A DNA stretch of 36,758 nucleotides from Planctomycetota bacterium (GTDB taxonomy: Bacteria > Planctomycetota > UBA1135 > GCA-002686595): contig DRLC01000036.1 in the NCBI GenBank assembly GCA_011053145.1, positions 1-36,758 on the forward strand, in the 5' to 3' direction. The notes below the pieces were generated by a model, which saw only the letters and a program-made list of their open reading frames with translations, made no database searches and was not told the DNA's origin. Of the stretch, positions 14,793 through 34,146 are shown piece after piece (positions within the stretch are counted from its first letter, which is position 1; each line of letters opens with the position of its first letter). Position numbers and translations under genes: made by a program.

Positions 14793-15337
14793 AGGTGTCG
14801 ATGGCCGCGCGGATCGGGGTGGGATTCCTCCTGATCCTCGGGGCGGCGAACGCCACGGCCCAGGAGCCCCTCGGGTCGCGATGGGCCGCCGTGGAGGCCC
14901 TTCCCCCCGAGAGCCAGGATCGCCTTCCTCGGGCCGCGGCACTCCTGATGGAAGCCGGGGACTTCGGCGGCGCACTGCTCCTCGCCGAGCGCGCGTTGGA
15001 GCGGGACCCGGAGAATCTGGAGTTGCTCTGGCGGGCCGCGTCGATTTCGGTCTCCCTGCGCGACGCCGGGAGGGCGCGGCGCCACGCGGACGCCCTCTGG
15101 GCGGCGGTCCAGGACCGGGCGTCCGGAGACCGGGAGTGGCAGAGCGCTGCGCTCGAACTCGAACGTTCCGCGGACCAGCTCGAGGAACACGCCGCCGAGC
15201 GCGTGCGGCTCCTTCGCCGCGCGCGCCTCCTCAGTGGAGGAATCTTCGCCGTCCTGCTCGCCGCCCTGGCGTGGCTGCTTCGAGCGGACGCCGCGGGAAG
15301 GCCGGGATCAGGGAAGGTCCAGGAGCCCGTTCTGTAG
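14789..15337 (+). CDS. Exported TPR-like protein with C-terminal membrane helix
   Basis: A 182-residue protein starting with a GTG that overlaps the previous stop; an ATG at 14801 is the alternative. Residues 6-26 (AARIGVGFLLILGAANATAQ) form a signal peptide. A TPR-like unit follows (AAALLMEAGDFGGALLLAERALERDPENLELLWRAA). A coiled helical stretch leads to a hydrophobic segment (GIFAVLLAALAWLLRA) near the C-terminus, so the repeat domain is probably held at the outer face of the cytoplasmic membrane. Overlap with the spermidine-synthase-like gene suggests a common mRNA. The 3' end overlaps the convergent HEAT gene by 30 bp. Function unknown. Confidence 0.75.
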   Translation: MKVSMAARIGVGFLLILGAANATAQEPLGSRWAAVEALPPESQDRLPRAAALLMEAGDFGGALLLAERALERDPENLELLWRAASISVSLRDAGRARRHADALWAAVQDRASGDREWQSAALELERSADQLEEHAAERVRLLRRARLLSGGIFAVLLAALAWLLRADAAGRPGSGKVQEPVL

Positions 15338-17428
15338 CTGCGGCTCGATCAGGGTCGGGAGCCAGACGTCGTACTGCGCATCCGTCGACATGCGGGCGAG
15401 CCAGGGCCACCGATCCTGGTCGCAGATGCGACCGATCGCGACCGCGGTCCAGGCGCGTCCCATCTCGCCCTTGCGGGGATCGAGGAGGCGCTTGCAGAGC
15501 TCGGTCAGCGGCCGCGGGTCCTTGATCCACCCCATCGCGGAAGCCACCGAGGCCTGGATCGTGGGCCGCGAGGAATCCTCCAGGATCTCGAAGAGGCGTT
15601 GGCCGATGCCTTGGTCACCGAGGAGCGCCAGCGCGATCGCGACATTCTCGACGACGAAGGGCTTCTGGGTCGATTCGGTCAGGACCTGCGAGAGGTCCTC
15701 GATCGCGGCCGGATTTCCGATCATGCCGAGTGCGAGCGCGGTGTATCCGCGCACGAACTCCTCGCCGGTCTCGCGCATGCGGGTCCGCAGGAGTTCCTGG
15801 GATTCCTGGTCGCGCATCATGCCGAGCGCGATCGCGATGGCTCCCGCGACCTCTCCCGAGCGAGTCCGGGTGAAGAGCTGGCGGAGCATGCGCCCGCTCG
15901 CCGGCGCGGCCACCTCGCCGCGCTGGGGAGCGGTCTCCTCGAGAACCCCGAGCCCGAGGGCCGTCCACGCCTGGGTTTCCCCACGGGACCGGCTGAGGTT
16001 CGTCAGGAGGAGCTTGCGGATCCTCTGGAGCGAGGGATACGGCTCATCGCCGGTGCCGCGGCGCGCCGCCGCTTCGGCGACCGAGACCATCGAGAGGAAC
16101 CGGGTGGAGCGGTGTGCGGAGGAGCGGTAGGCCACCTCCGAGAGGTGCTTCAGGATCTGCTCGTCGAGCGGATCGCCTCCGGATCGGCCGATGTTGCCGA
16201 GGGCGATGACGCAGGCGTTCTGGACCTCCCGCAGCTCCTTGGAAGACCGACCGACGGAGGCGAGGAAGGTGTATCCTGCCCGGGCGCGGAGGGACTCGGG
16301 GGCACCTTGCAGCAGGCGGGCGATGGCCGTCGGAGCCTGGGATCGCGCGACGTAGGACTGATCGGCATCCCCGAAGAAGGAGAGCATCTCGAGGATCTGA
16401 TCGACGCGGGTTCGCCCGGTGAACAGCTCACTCTCGCCGACGAATTCGTTGTCGAGCGGCATGGGGGTCATTCCGAGCGCGGTGAGCGCAGCGGACTGCA
16501 CTTCCACGCGATCGACCCACAGCGCGGTCTTCAGGGAGTCGTAGATCAGCGCGCGGACCTCGGGGCTGTGGGTTCGTTCTCCGAGCAATCCCAGCCCGTA
16601 GGCGGCGAACGCGCGCAGGCGGACTCCGATGCGCTGGCGGCCGACGAGGTCCCGGCCGAGGGGTTCGTCCTTCAGGATCGCGGTCAACCACGAGGCATAG
16701 CGGTCCTCCCCGCGAATCCCGAGCGCGAGCACCGCCTTCTCGGCGACCTCCTGGTTTCCGCTCGAAAGGGGAATGCGGACCACGTCCGCGAATCCGCCGA
16801 GCTTCGGGTCCGGCATCACGTCCCGCAGCTTCGCCAGCGCCTGGATCGCGTAGATCTGGAGCTCCGGTCGGCCTCCCCGGCGGATCGCGCGGATGAGCGC
16901 GGGTTGGACGACGTCTCGGATCTGTGCCTGGGAAGCGCGCAGGAGCGGGGAGACCTCTGCGGTCTCGCCTCGGCCCATGTAAAAGCCACCGGCGCCGGAT
17001 TCGCTCAGGGTCGGCACCGCGGCCAGATGGTCCCAGCGGTTGTAGTGCCACCAGAGCTTCCAGGAGTTCGGGGACTCGACACGCGGTCGGCTCGCCGGGG
17101 TGATCGGGGGCGGTTCGGCGTCGGTTGCCCCGAGCCCGGGGATGTTCGGGCGCGCGAAGGGGTTCGCGCCTTCGGCGTACGGGCTCGCGGGCGTCGTGCT
17201 CCCGGGAATCGGGGTGCTGGGGTCGGTCCCCGTGACCGGGCCGGGATCCCCCCCGGTGCCGCCGGTTCCGCCCGTGCTCGGATCCACCGTATCCCCGGGG
17301 CCGTTGTACCCCCCGGGGCGGCCGGGATCATCGGGCGGCCCGTCGGGTTGGCCCACCTTCTGGGCGGAGAGGGGGCACGCGAGCGCAGCCAGGAGCAGGA
17401 GCGCGGGAGGGGTGGCGAGGAGCTTCAT
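15308..17428 (-). CDS. Secreted HEAT-repeat protein, paralogue 1
   Basis: A 706-residue exported protein: signal peptide (KLLATPPALLLLAALACPLSAQ), then the motif YNGPGDTVDP, and a low-complexity linker rich in Gly, Thr, Pro and Ser to about residue 110. A conserved entry segment (SWKLWWHYNRWDHL, GGFYMGRGE) precedes about a dozen HEAT-type helical pairs with repeated 'ALG.(I/L/M)' turns (VLALGIRGE, YGLGLLGE, LALGMIGNP, AIALALLGD). It ends in LQNGLLDLP. HEAT solenoids bind other proteins and no enzymatic motif is seen. It is clearly paralogous to the next gene upstream, with which it shares every landmark in the same order. Position after a signal peptide places it in the periplasm or outside. 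No ribosome binding site precedes the ATG. Confidence 0.85.
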   Translation of the reverse strand: MKLLATPPALLLLAALACPLSAQKVGQPDGPPDDPGRPGGYNGPGDTVDPSTGGTGGTGGDPGPVTGTDPSTPIPGSTTPASPYAEGANPFARPNIPGLGATDAEPPPITPASRPRVESPNSWKLWWHYNRWDHLAAVPTLSESGAGGFYMGRGETAEVSPLLRASQAQIRDVVQPALIRAIRRGGRPELQIYAIQALAKLRDVMPDPKLGGFADVVRIPLSSGNQEVAEKAVLALGIRGEDRYASWLTAILKDEPLGRDLVGRQRIGVRLRAFAAYGLGLLGERTHSPEVRALIYDSLKTALWVDRVEVQSAALTALGMTPMPLDNEFVGESELFTGRTRVDQILEMLSFFGDADQSYVARSQAPTAIARLLQGAPESLRARAGYTFLASVGRSSKELREVQNACVIALGNIGRSGGDPLDEQILKHLSEVAYRSSAHRSTRFLSMVSVAEAAARRGTGDEPYPSLQRIRKLLLTNLSRSRGETQAWTALGLGVLEETAPQRGEVAAPASGRMLRQLFTRTRSGEVAGAIAIALGMMRDQESQELLRTRMRETGEEFVRGYTALALGMIGNPAAIEDLSQVLTESTQKPFVVENVAIALALLGDQGIGQRLFEILEDSSRPTIQASVASAMGWIKDPRPLTELCKRLLDPRKGEMGRAWTAVAIGRICDQDRWPWLARMSTDAQYDVWLPTLIEPQLQNGLLDLP

Positions 17429-17705: not shown

Positions 17706-19790
17706 CTAGAGGATGTCGAGGATGCCCGTGCCGTTCGTGGAGTCGACCAACGTGGTCGCCGAAGCCCGATAGTTCAGGTCCACCGCGATCTTGGTGTTCC
17801 ACGGCAAAGGCTCCTTGTCGGCGACGATGCCGAGGGCCACGGCTGCGAAGCCACGTGCCTGGGAGGTGAGCTCCTTGTCCTGGAGCATGTTGACGAGCGG
17901 GTCGATCGAGTGCTGGTCCCCGATGAATCCCAGGGCCGAGGAGATCGCGGCCTGGGTCGCGAGGCTCTTCGAGCTCTGGAGCATCTTGACGAGCTTGCCG
18001 ACGAGTTCCTTGTCCCCGAGGAGACCGAGCGAAATCGCGGCCTGCTTCAGGAGATCGGGACGGTACTTCGACTCCTCGATGATGCGGCCGATCGGCTCCT
18101 TCGCGTTGAGGTCGCCCATCAGCCCGAGCCCGAGCGCGACGTACCCGCGGGCGGTGTCCTCGCTCAGCTTCTCGAGGTGCTCGAGGAGGGTCTTGGAAGC
18201 TTCCTGGTCGCCCATGATCCCGACGCCGATCGAGTACGCGCCGAGCCGCGACTTGTCCTTCTCCGCCTTGAGAGCGCTCCGAAGAGCGTCGCCGAGGGCG
18301 ACGAGTTCCGGAGGCGCGGTGCCCTGCTCCTTAAGCTTGCGGCCGAGGACCCCGATCGCGAGGCCGGCCCAGGGCTTGATCGTGGACTTGCCGCGTTCGA
18401 GCTGCTTGAGCAGGAACTCGGACGCGTCCTTGATGCCGCTCTCACTTCCGTCCGGTCCGGGAGTCCCGGCCACCTTGGCCATCGCGATCAGCGCGAAGTT
18501 GCGGGACTGCTGGTCGGACAGGTTCTTCGGAACCTCGGCGAGGGCCTTGCGGATCTTCTTGTCGAGGTCGGTGTCCCCGGCCGTGCCGATCAATCCCATC
18601 GCGAGGATGCAGCTCTGCTGGACCTCCCGAGGTTCGTCCGAGCTCTTGCTCATGCGGTCGAGCAGGTCATCGGCGATCTTGTTGCGCCAGGTCTCGTGGA
18701 GGTCCGCCGGCATCCCATCGAGGAGGCGCCCGAGGGCGGTGGGGCAGTGGGCGCGGATGAGGAAGTTGTTGGTGTCGTCCGCGAGGAAGTCCAGGAGGAA
18801 CTGCAGTTGCGCGGTGCGGCTGAGGTAGGGCGGCTGGGGGCCCTCTTCCCCTTCCGCGACCGGTGCTTCCATCTGCTCGATCGGCACGAGGCCCATCGAG
18901 ATGATGCACGCGATCTGGAGGTCGCGGGAGGACGTGTTGTCCGACGCGATCGTCTTCGCGAGGTGCTCCACGATCGTCTGGCGTTCCTCCGCCGAGGCCT
19001 GCTTCCCGATCAGCCCCAGCCCGTAGGCAGCGAACGCGCGTGTGCGGTAGGGAACCTCGGGGTCACCCACGAGCTTGCGCCCCTCGGGGGTGTCTTCCAT
19101 CAGGGCGGCGAGGGTCGGGATCGACTTGGGGTTCGCGAGGATCCCGAGCGCGACCGCGGCGGTCTCACTGATCTCCTGGTTGCTGTCGCCGAGGAAATGC
19201 TTGATGACCTGCTCGAACTCGGACTCGCCGCTCTCCCCCTTGACGTCGCCGATCTTCGCGAGCGCGATCATCGCACCGGTCACGATGTCGTTGTTCGTCT
19301 CGGTCTCGAGCGCTCGGAGGAGGGCCGGTACGACCTTCTCGCGGATCTGGTTCTCGGACGGACGCAGGCTGTTCTTGGCCTCCTTCTTTTCCCCCCGTCC
19401 GAGGAAGAAGCCCTCGGAGCCGGACTCGATCTGGCCCTCTTGGATGTGGGACTTCAGGTTGAGGTAGGGCTCCTTGTTGAACTCCCACCAGAAGGACCAG
19501 ACCGTGAGGTCCGGGCCGCTCGCGGTGGTCGTGCCCGTTGTCGGCTTGCTGGCGGTGCTGCCGCCGGGAGCACCGGGGCTGAGCGGACCGGGTGCCGTGG
19601 GGCCGGCGGAACCGGGAGTGGTCGGGCCCGCGGGGCCGGGCGCGGTACCGGCACCGCCGCCACCTCCTCCACCGCCGGGCGGAACGGTATCACCGGGACC
19701 TCGGTACTGGCCCCCGTGGGCGAAGGAGGGGGATTGCATGCCGAGCATGCCAAGAGCGGCGAGGGCCGCGGTGAGAAGGAGTTTCTTCAT
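17706..19790 (-). CDS. Secreted HEAT-repeat protein, paralogue 2
   Basis: A 694-residue exported protein with signal peptide (KKLLLTAALAALGMLGMQSPSFA), then YRGPGDTVPP at the mature N-terminus, a poly-Gly run and a Gly/Pro/Thr/Ala linker. The entry segment is LTVWSFWWEFNKEPYLNL and GFFLGRGEKKE. It is followed by many HEAT-type repeats with 'ALG.(I/L)(G/A)' turns (ALGILANPKSIPTLAALME, LGLMGDLNAKEPIGRI, SLGLLGDKELVGKLV, SALGFIGDQHSIDPLVNML). It ends LNYRASATTLVDS and GILDIL. It lacks catalytic motifs and is probably a binding scaffold outside the cytoplasm. A start 37 codons further up is possible but lacks a signal-peptide shape. Together with paralogue 1 it forms a tandem duplicated pair. Confidence 0.87.
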   Translation of the reverse strand: MKKLLLTAALAALGMLGMQSPSFAHGGQYRGPGDTVPPGGGGGGGGAGTAPGPAGPTTPGSAGPTAPGPLSPGAPGGSTASKPTTGTTTASGPDLTVWSFWWEFNKEPYLNLKSHIQEGQIESGSEGFFLGRGEKKEAKNSLRPSENQIREKVVPALLRALETETNNDIVTGAMIALAKIGDVKGESGESEFEQVIKHFLGDSNQEISETAAVALGILANPKSIPTLAALMEDTPEGRKLVGDPEVPYRTRAFAAYGLGLIGKQASAEERQTIVEHLAKTIASDNTSSRDLQIACIISMGLVPIEQMEAPVAEGEEGPQPPYLSRTAQLQFLLDFLADDTNNFLIRAHCPTALGRLLDGMPADLHETWRNKIADDLLDRMSKSSDEPREVQQSCILAMGLIGTAGDTDLDKKIRKALAEVPKNLSDQQSRNFALIAMAKVAGTPGPDGSESGIKDASEFLLKQLERGKSTIKPWAGLAIGVLGRKLKEQGTAPPELVALGDALRSALKAEKDKSRLGAYSIGVGIMGDQEASKTLLEHLEKLSEDTARGYVALGLGLMGDLNAKEPIGRIIEESKYRPDLLKQAAISLGLLGDKELVGKLVKMLQSSKSLATQAAISSALGFIGDQHSIDPLVNMLQDKELTSQARGFAAVALGIVADKEPLPWNTKIAVDLNYRASATTLVDSTNGTGILDIL

Positions 19791-28456: not shown

Positions 28457-28462
28457 TAGACT
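28457..28462 (+). promoter_or_regulatory. -10 box of the riboswitch-controlled transcript
   Basis: TAGACT lies seven bases before the first bases of the riboswitch fold, so transcription would start at about 28469. No good -35 box is visible. Confidence 0.5.
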
Positions 28463-28469
28463 CGGCGCT

Positions 28470-28675
28470 CGTATCGGCACGTGCGAACGGGGAAGTCAGG
28501 TGCGAATCCTGCACGGTCCCGCCACTGTGAGTCGCCGAGCCCCGCTTCGCCCGAGCTCCCCGTGAGCGCGGGTGGGCACCCCCGAGCAGGCGGGTGTCCG
28601 GTCACTGGGTCCTGACCCGGGAAGGCTGGAGCGCGCGGCGGAAACGACGAGTCAGGAGACCCGGCGCGCGTGCGG
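28470..28675 (+). ncRNA. Cobalamin riboswitch (AdoCbl class I-like aptamer)
   Basis: The aptamer binds a cobalamin and lowers expression of the gene behind it when B12 is plentiful. The core is unmistakable: GAACGGGGAAGTCAGG, GCGAATCCTGCACGG and the B12 box CCCGCCACTGTGA (28518-28530). CACTGGGTC and CCCGGGAAGG follow, and the 3' strand is GAGTCAGGAGACC (28650-28662). The closing P1 stem pairs GCACGTGC (28477-28484) with GCGCGTGC (28666-28673), with one G-U. The size of about 205 nt and the peripheral insert before CACTGGG fit the larger class I form. Any open frame running through this region is fortuitous. Confidence 0.95.
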
Positions 28676-28721
28676 ACCTTGTGTCGGACCCCGGGGAATG
28701 GGCCCGCCTGGTCTTCGCGCT

Positions 28722-28792
28722 CCTCCGGACCGCGAACGTCCCGTCGTGCCCCCCCGGGGATCCGGTCTTCGACGTGGACATCGAACCGGAGG
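28722..28792 (+). promoter_or_regulatory. Expression platform: anti-SD/SD helix
   Basis: CCTCCGG (28722-28728) is perfectly complementary to CCGGAGG (28786-28792), the Shine-Dalgarno sequence seven bases before the ATG at 28800. Pairing would hide the ribosome binding site. No terminator with a U-tract lies between aptamer and gene, so control of translation initiation is the likelier mode. Confidence 0.65.
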
Positions 28793-28799
28793 TCATCCC

Positions 28800-30095
28800 A
28801 TGAAAACGGGATCCATCGCGGCCGTCGCCGCCCTCTCTCTCCTTCCCCTCTCCGCGCCCGCCTTCGGGCAGGCCGACCAACCCGCCGACGGCTTCGCCGT
28901 CACCTCTCTCCCCTACCCGGGCGCCAGCGCGACGCTGACGCTTTCGAACGGCGACATCATCGCCTTCGACGGCTCGAACGTCGATCGCTATGACGCGTCG
29001 GGGGTCCTCCTGACGAATCTCGCGAGCTTCTCGCCCTTCGTCTTCCCGTCCTTCGTACTCACCGATCCGAGCGAGAGCATGCTCGTGCTCGGGGAGAGTT
29101 CGAACGGCGTCATCTACGAGATGCCCCTCGCCCCCGCGACGCCGAACCCGGTCACGACCCTCGCGTTTAACTACGACGCCGTGTTCGAGGACGCCACGCA
29201 CGTCCTCGTCAGTGCCGCCGCCCTCGGCTTCGGACTCGGGAACCAGGTCTACCGCGTGGACCTCACCACCGGTACGACGACCCAGCTCGTCGCCGTCGCC
29301 GGTGCTTCCGGCCCCATCGCGTTGGACGACGCGGGGAACCTCTTCTACGGCACCTCCTCGAGCGCCTTTCCCGCGCCCCCCGGATCCACGGACGTCCTGC
29401 TCTTCGACCAGGCGGCCCTGACCGGCAGCCCGGTCCTCACCGAGGCGGACGCAACGGTCGTGCTCTCGGGCCTCGACGGCGCGGCGAGCATGGCCTTCGA
29501 TTCGGTGGAGGATTCGCTCTACCTCGCGATCAACAACTTCGGGACCGGGGTGAACCGGATCCAGCGCGTCTTCGGCGGTCCGATCGAGGTCGTGCTCGAG
29601 GGCGTCTCCGGGCGCTCGATCTCGAACCTCGAGTTCGATGGAGGAGACGGCGTGGCCGCCTACCTCGGCTACCAGCCCGCGACCGGCGGAGTGCTGCGCT
29701 ACAACACGACCGATTTCGCGGCCACTTCGGAGCGCAACCAGGTCGTCGCCGCGCGACCGATCGCCTCGGTCAGCGGTCCGGGGACCACCGGCCCCGGCAG
29801 TTTCGATGTCGCCCTCACCCAGGGTGCGCCGAACGGATTCGCGATCCTCTACTTCGATCTGAACTCGAACCTCCCCCCCACCGAGACCGTGATCTCGCTC
29901 GGCTTTCCGCTCTTCCTCGGGCTGAGCCTTCCGGGGCTCTCCCGGGTTCCTGGAACGTTCCCCGTGGACGGGAATGGAAACGCGGTACGCACCTTCACGA
30001 ACCCTGGTGGGCTCGAAGGGCTGTACACGATGCAGTTCCTGGTCTTTGACATGGGCGCGCAACTCGTCGGCTCGTCGACCCTGACGTCCTTCTAG
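28800..30095 (+). CDS. Secreted beta-propeller-like protein under B12 riboswitch control
   Basis: A 431-residue exported protein. MKTGSIAAVAALSLLPLSAPAFGQ is a signal peptide cut near AFGQ. Residues 35-330 show the repeated strand pattern of NHL/SMP-30-like beta-propellers: LSNGDIIAFDGSNVDRYDASG, PSFVLTDPSESMLVLGES, NQVYRVDLTTGTTTQLVAV, PIALDDAGNLFYGTSS, SMAFDSVEDSLYLAINN and LEFDGGDGVAAYLGYQ. A final beta domain (NGFAILYFDLNSN to VGSSTLTSF) is of a type common on secreted proteins in such genomes. The start is set by the CCGGAGG site and the signal peptide. It is the only gene behind the riboswitch. By analogy with the surface propeller BtuG of Bacteroides, a cobalamin-binding or scavenging role is proposed; this is inference from context and fold. 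Confidence 0.87.
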   Translation: MKTGSIAAVAALSLLPLSAPAFGQADQPADGFAVTSLPYPGASATLTLSNGDIIAFDGSNVDRYDASGVLLTNLASFSPFVFPSFVLTDPSESMLVLGESSNGVIYEMPLAPATPNPVTTLAFNYDAVFEDATHVLVSAAALGFGLGNQVYRVDLTTGTTTQLVAVAGASGPIALDDAGNLFYGTSSSAFPAPPGSTDVLLFDQAALTGSPVLTEADATVVLSGLDGAASMAFDSVEDSLYLAINNFGTGVNRIQRVFGGPIEVVLEGVSGRSISNLEFDGGDGVAAYLGYQPATGGVLRYNTTDFAATSERNQVVAARPIASVSGPGTTGPGSFDVALTQGAPNGFAILYFDLNSNLPPTETVISLGFPLFLGLSLPGLSRVPGTFPVDGNGNAVRTFTNPGGLEGLYTMQFLVFDMGAQLVGSSTLTSF

Positions 30096-34059: not shown

Positions 34060-34146
34060 TGGTACCAGAGAGGGGACTTGAACCCCTACTCCCTTGCGGG
34101 AAATGGATTTTGAATCCATCGCGTCTACCAATTCCGCCACTCTGGC
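34060..34146 (-). tRNA. tRNA-Leu (CAA)
   Basis: Read on the minus strand, the 87 bases fold as a leucine tRNA. The acceptor 5' strand GCCAGAG pairs with CTCTGGT, followed by A and an encoded CCA. The anticodon arm is ATGGA, loop TTCAAAA, TCCAT, giving anticodon CAA (reads UUG). The extra arm TTCCCGCAAGGGA is long, as in class II tRNAs. The T arm is GGGG, TTCAAGT, CCCC. It stands between ddl and the 228-residue gene, with a UUCG-type short hairpin (34152-34165) before it. Confidence 0.96.

Follow-up and report, generated by a model that had tools for sequence, protein, structure and literature searches.

An exported β-propeller family of Planctomycetota under cobalamin riboswitch control is a putative cobamide-capture component

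We analyzed a 36,758-nucleotide stretch of Planctomycetota DNA (the window; contig DRLC01000036.1), in which a cobalamin riboswitch precedes the gene of an exported protein with a predicted β-propeller. A role of this propeller family in B12 acquisition is strongly supported. Because the riboswitch recurs before its homologues, because homologues share operons with btuCDF-like or BtuH-domain genes, and because a YncE-like propeller replaces it elsewhere, the protein is most likely an extracytoplasmic cobamide-capture component of a B12 uptake system, i.e., a putative binder. We consider it probable that this exported propeller, presumably repressed by B12, takes part in Planctomycetota cobamide uptake and binds cobamides outside the inner membrane for BtuF-BtuCD. 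The features of the locus are as follows.

28457–28662, + strand: cobalamin riboswitch aptamer; positions 22–169 of the RF00174 model correspond to 28468–28662 (cmscan)
28663–28799, + strand: leader from aptamer to start codon, the putative expression platform
28768–28785, + strand: small conserved hairpin TTCGA-CGTGGACA-TCGAA, directly 5' of the Shine-Dalgarno sequence
28788–28792, + strand: Shine-Dalgarno sequence GGAGG, read directly
28800–30095, + strand: exported protein of 431 aa with ATG start (translation, AlphaFold2, Foldseek, family alignment A1)
Domains of the protein: signal peptide, about residues 1–24; propeller, about 32–327; C-terminal β-sandwich, about 330–431

The RF00174 match at 28468–28662 (+) reached 51.3 bits, where the gathering score is 31.5, and its E-value within the window was 4e-10. 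It contains the conserved core and the B12 box AGTCAGGAGACC at about 28651–28662, which bears out the aptamer that a sequence-only reading of the window had recognized. An Rfam search of the 4.05-Mb, 400-contig assembly found this one cobalamin riboswitch only. The gene starts 138 nt 3' of the match. Neither a T-run nor an intrinsic terminator was found in the leader, and the whole leader fold was not more stable than shuffles (z −0.27). The hairpin motif (TTCGA-CGnGGn-TCGAA) was present in 21 of 31 family leaders, and variant stems, e.g., TTCTG...CAGAA, occurred in three genomes (G001, G022, G018). This hairpin may be the regulatory helix of the riboswitch. As the leader is devoid of a terminator and the conserved hairpin lies right before the Shine-Dalgarno sequence, we infer a translational expression platform, i.e., repression of translation.

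A homologue of the propeller family was found in 46 of 61 related genomes. The sequence-only reading had proposed to look for the riboswitch before orthologues. Of the 46 relatives with a homologue, 43 carry it upstream of the gene and in the same orientation, i.e., all 43 where upstream sequence exists, and the remaining three genes lie at contig edges. In G015 and G029, no more than about 200 nt of contig precede the start codon; in G038, the propeller gene stands behind a BtuH-type gene that itself starts 47 nt short of the contig end. Among relatives, the gene is almost always associated with the riboswitch. Riboswitch and gene were 78–353 nt apart in nearly all 43 relatives, and up to 1.4 kb apart for tandem copies. 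Moreover, a search of 392 genomes from across the phylum with the family profile gave 55 positives, and we took the 38 phylum-wide genomes not examined before as an out-of-sample set; in 31 of these 38, a riboswitch was found within 650 nt upstream. Besides these 31, three genomes of genus g62 have a riboswitch at the head of an operon that ends with the gene. A homologue of the window's protein was also found in a Planctomycetota MAG by a single-protein scan. The riboswitch is missing from a few diverged paralogues (G016, G028, G255). Those of G016 (L102:5993–7792) and G028 (L103) are longer propeller-family proteins of 599 aa or more.

With 51 bits, the match is modest for the RF00174 family, and it might be read as a chance match or as a relic upstream of an unrelated gene. 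However, most related genomes carry only one to three cobalamin riboswitches each, and the pairing is therefore not a chance event; it recurs in every testable relative and in most of the out-of-sample genomes, and riboswitch scores before homologues elsewhere reach at least 104 bits. We hence give the chance or relic explanation practically no credence.

The 431-aa protein has a Sec-type signal peptide, and its translation has no cysteine in the signal-peptide region and hence no lipobox. It matched no Pfam or NCBIfam family. Its conserved stretches include FNYDA, GESS and GxSGPxA. AlphaFold2, run with the 42-sequence family alignment (A1), gave a model with pLDDT 93.7 and pTM 0.89, in which the predicted propeller reads as six four-stranded blades, judged from the strand list. 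Foldseek comparison of the model with the PDB yielded 742 matches at E ≤ 0.001, and those listed were mostly propellers. The secreted propeller that had been read from the sequence thus gained a predicted structure. Among the best 50 of the 742 matches, the highest target-normalized TM-scores belonged to designs with six blades (Pizza6, 0.77) and to small propellers like them, and neither BtuG nor another B12-binding propeller was found among these 50. The fold of the model is that of a generic propeller. When the fetched loci were searched with a profile of the C-terminal domain, it matched this family and one other, riboswitch-controlled protein in L113.

No btu or TonB gene was seen near 28800–30095, so that the description of a lone gene behind the riboswitch was right in this sense. 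On the same strand, a response-regulator gene begins 150 nt 3' of the propeller gene. The genes conserved downstream in relatives, however, lie on the opposite strand; the propeller gene is therefore normally monocistronic. Within the taxonomic family it is syntenic beside housekeeping genes, and neither a TonB receptor gene nor btuB was found among its conserved neighbors. No btu gene adjoins it in most genomes, the window's included. Elsewhere in the window, a tRNA gene with a long variable arm lies at 34063–34146 (−) (Rfam, 58.8 bits), and two neighboring large exported proteins at 15308–17428 and 17706–19790 (−) have similar glycine-rich GPGDT motifs near the N-terminus.

In genus g62 (three genomes), orthologues do adjoin btu genes, as the sequence-only reading had thought worth checking. 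There, a riboswitch is followed by genes for a FecCD permease (btuC), an ABC ATPase (btuD) and a Peripla_BP_2 protein of BtuF type, and the propeller gene is the last of the operon, 70 nt behind the Peripla_BP_2 gene. P0001 and the g62 protein share 29% identity over the full length (E 5e-45). A propeller-Y_Y_Y histidine kinase of about 1250 aa is encoded after the btuCDF-propeller operon (L232:8465–12223 in G366, same place in G195 and G236). In G346 of family f97 (L243), the genes behind the riboswitch encode, in this order, a homologue of the propeller (hhalign E 6e-14) and a 264-aa BtuH-domain protein. The latter matches the BtuH domains of two proteins, BtuG1/BtuGH (8blw) with E 2.9e-20 and BtuH2 (7biz) with E 2.1e-12. 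BtuH2 binds B12 through its BtuH domain (PMC8941943). About 18 relatives have a further cobalamin riboswitch before btuF, btuC or btuD genes, and these riboswitches therefore run the B12 uptake regulon. In family f6, genes that by eye only look like BtuF-type and QueG-like reductase genes are divergent from the propeller gene (L086:2259–3812 and L090:8542–9321).

BtuH-type proteins of the order, which we call class A, were found in 12 genomes, with a riboswitch in 11 of the 12 and a contig edge in the twelfth. Class A aligned with the 264-aa G346 protein at hhalign E 9e-18, and its profile matched BtuH in the PDB weakly (E 0.33). A fold search of the class A model against the PDB gave no significant match, so the link to BtuH rests on sequence, and at this level we hold class A proteins to belong to the BtuH superfamily. 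BtuH has been described from Bacteroidetes. In Planctomycetota, free-standing BtuH-domain proteins under cobalamin riboswitches were seen at L243:7708–9586 (G346) and as the A4 proteins of 12 genomes.

Thirteen of the 15 genomes without the propeller family have a YncE/YVTN-like propeller instead (alignment A3), and two (G009, G058) have neither. Among the 46 genomes with the propeller family, only G032 has a YncE-like propeller (Fisher p 2e-10 overall and 0.002 within the taxonomic family, both p values ignoring phylogeny). Cobalamin riboswitches precede 13 of 14 YncE-like genes. The A3 profile matches a YVTN surface-layer protein and YncE, and its match to the window's family is partial and of a generic propeller kind only. 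Loci of the YncE-like exported propellers are L107, L108, L119, L115, L105:5760–6956 and L120:9334–10485. From their near mutual exclusion and the riboswitch control of both, two only remotely related propellers appear to fill one riboswitch-controlled niche.

Many propellers are hydrolases, and the protein might instead be an enzyme or chaperone of the B12 regulon that acts outside the cytoplasm, i.e., that releases, remodels or loads corrinoids rather than captures them. Riboswitch control and the btuCDF operon would suit such processing equally well; moreover, a sequence search gave weak profile similarity to DFPase, and the Foldseek matches included strictosidine synthase and a lactonase. 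However, replacement by a YncE-type propeller and co-occurrence with BtuH domains point to binding, and no catalytic motif was identified in the propeller protein. We therefore regard a processing function as conceivable but rather improbable.

The window's own genome (G000; assembly 91.5% complete) encodes the B12-binding subunit (C-terminal domain) of methylmalonyl-CoA mutase and a MetH-like protein, together with btuC, btuD and BtuF-like binding-protein genes. No cobalamin riboswitch was found before its btuCD genes, and neither of its two TonB-dependent receptors is clearly BtuB. CobS had no match in the assembly. With B12 enzymes and btuCDF-like genes present and no CobS found, the host appears to consume B12 and to depend on its import.

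In other bacteria, cobalt transport is likewise among the targets of cobalamin riboswitches. Instead of cobamide, the propeller might bind something else of relevance at low B12, i.e., cobalt, lower-ligand bases, or a carrier polysaccharide or protein. Yet a host in which no CobS was found would gain little from cobalt or from bases for synthesis, and the g62 operon combines the propeller with BtuCDF-like genes; we deem another ligand unlikely.

We thus favor cobamide capture, for which we propose the following course. With ample B12 in the cell, the aptamer would bind it and shut the leader, probably repressing translation. When B12 is short, the propeller protein would be made and exported via its Sec-type signal, presumably to the periplasm or the cell surface. 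There it would bind cobamides outside the inner membrane, which might then be handed to the BtuF-BtuCD importer or to an outer-membrane receptor.

The propeller family is a new, unnamed, riboswitch-controlled exported family akin to known accessory B12-capture proteins; our literature search found no paper on it, nor on cobalamin riboswitches in Planctomycetes. We see an even chance that Planctomycetota possess an extracytoplasmic cobamide-capture layer of their own, in which a propeller with no detectable sequence relation to BtuG, an interchangeable YncE-like propeller and free BtuH proteins, all riboswitch-controlled, feed BtuFCD, often without a recognizable BtuB. If so, high-affinity extracellular B12 scavenging would have arisen more than once and would not be peculiar to gut Bacteroidota. 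Scavenging of the BtuG type has been reported as exclusive to Bacteroidetes (PMC6143338). Should the protein bind cobamides, the job of BtuG would be done in another phylum by a second propeller lineage, which would help to explain how B12-dependent Planctomycetota are supplied where the vitamin is scarce. BtuH-domain proteins occur in Planctomycetota, too, and a large unannotated protein family gains a concrete, testable function.

BtuG is an exported seven-bladed propeller under a cobalamin riboswitch and part of B12 acquisition (PMC6143338, PMC10404256), and BT_1490 has been named BtuGH (PMC12751083). The window's protein had been read from the sequence as a BtuG-like B12 scavenger. The role in B12 acquisition stood, strongly supported by the riboswitch, the btuCDF-like and BtuH operons and the near-exclusive replacement, whereas the likeness to BtuG holds as an analogy only, as searches by sequence and by fold gave no link between them. 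For comparison, BtuG2/BtuG3 of Bacteroides thetaiotaomicron is represented by 3DSM, 8BMX and 8OKV, and BtuG1/BtuGH (BT_1490), a propeller fused to a BtuH domain, by 8BLW. A PDB sequence search with the 42-sequence family profile gave no BtuG match, and none of the 42 family members matched DUF5074. A true BtuG orthologue, transferred from Bacteroidota to Planctomycetota, might be suspected from the exported propeller, the cobalamin riboswitch and, in one lineage, a BtuH-domain partner. However, the predicted model reads as six-bladed, with Pizza6 among its best-covered matches, and homology to BtuG or YncE, a lipobox cysteine and an adjacent btuB gene were all not found. BtuG homologues, moreover, have been reported in Bacteroidetes only (PMC6143338). 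Orthology to BtuG is therefore highly improbable, and we rejected it for the six blades read from the model and the missing lipobox, DUF5074 match and linked btuB.

The window's protein hence resembles BtuG as an exported β-propeller under cobalamin riboswitch control, but the predicted model has an added C-terminal sandwich. BtuG sits on the cell surface as a lipoprotein, locked on BtuB, and has fM affinity for B12, whereas the window's protein has neither lipobox nor btuB neighbor and is a putative cobamide binder only. BtuG1/BtuGH finds its parallel in the riboswitch-led operon of propeller and BtuH-domain genes in G346; these genes are separate, in contrast to the fused protein, and the propeller has no detectable sequence kinship. 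The YncE/DUF5074-like propellers of the same order share control and export with the window's family, and many of them also have a C-terminal extension. As a regulatory RNA, the riboswitch is ordinary for RF00174; what is new is the protein family that it targets.
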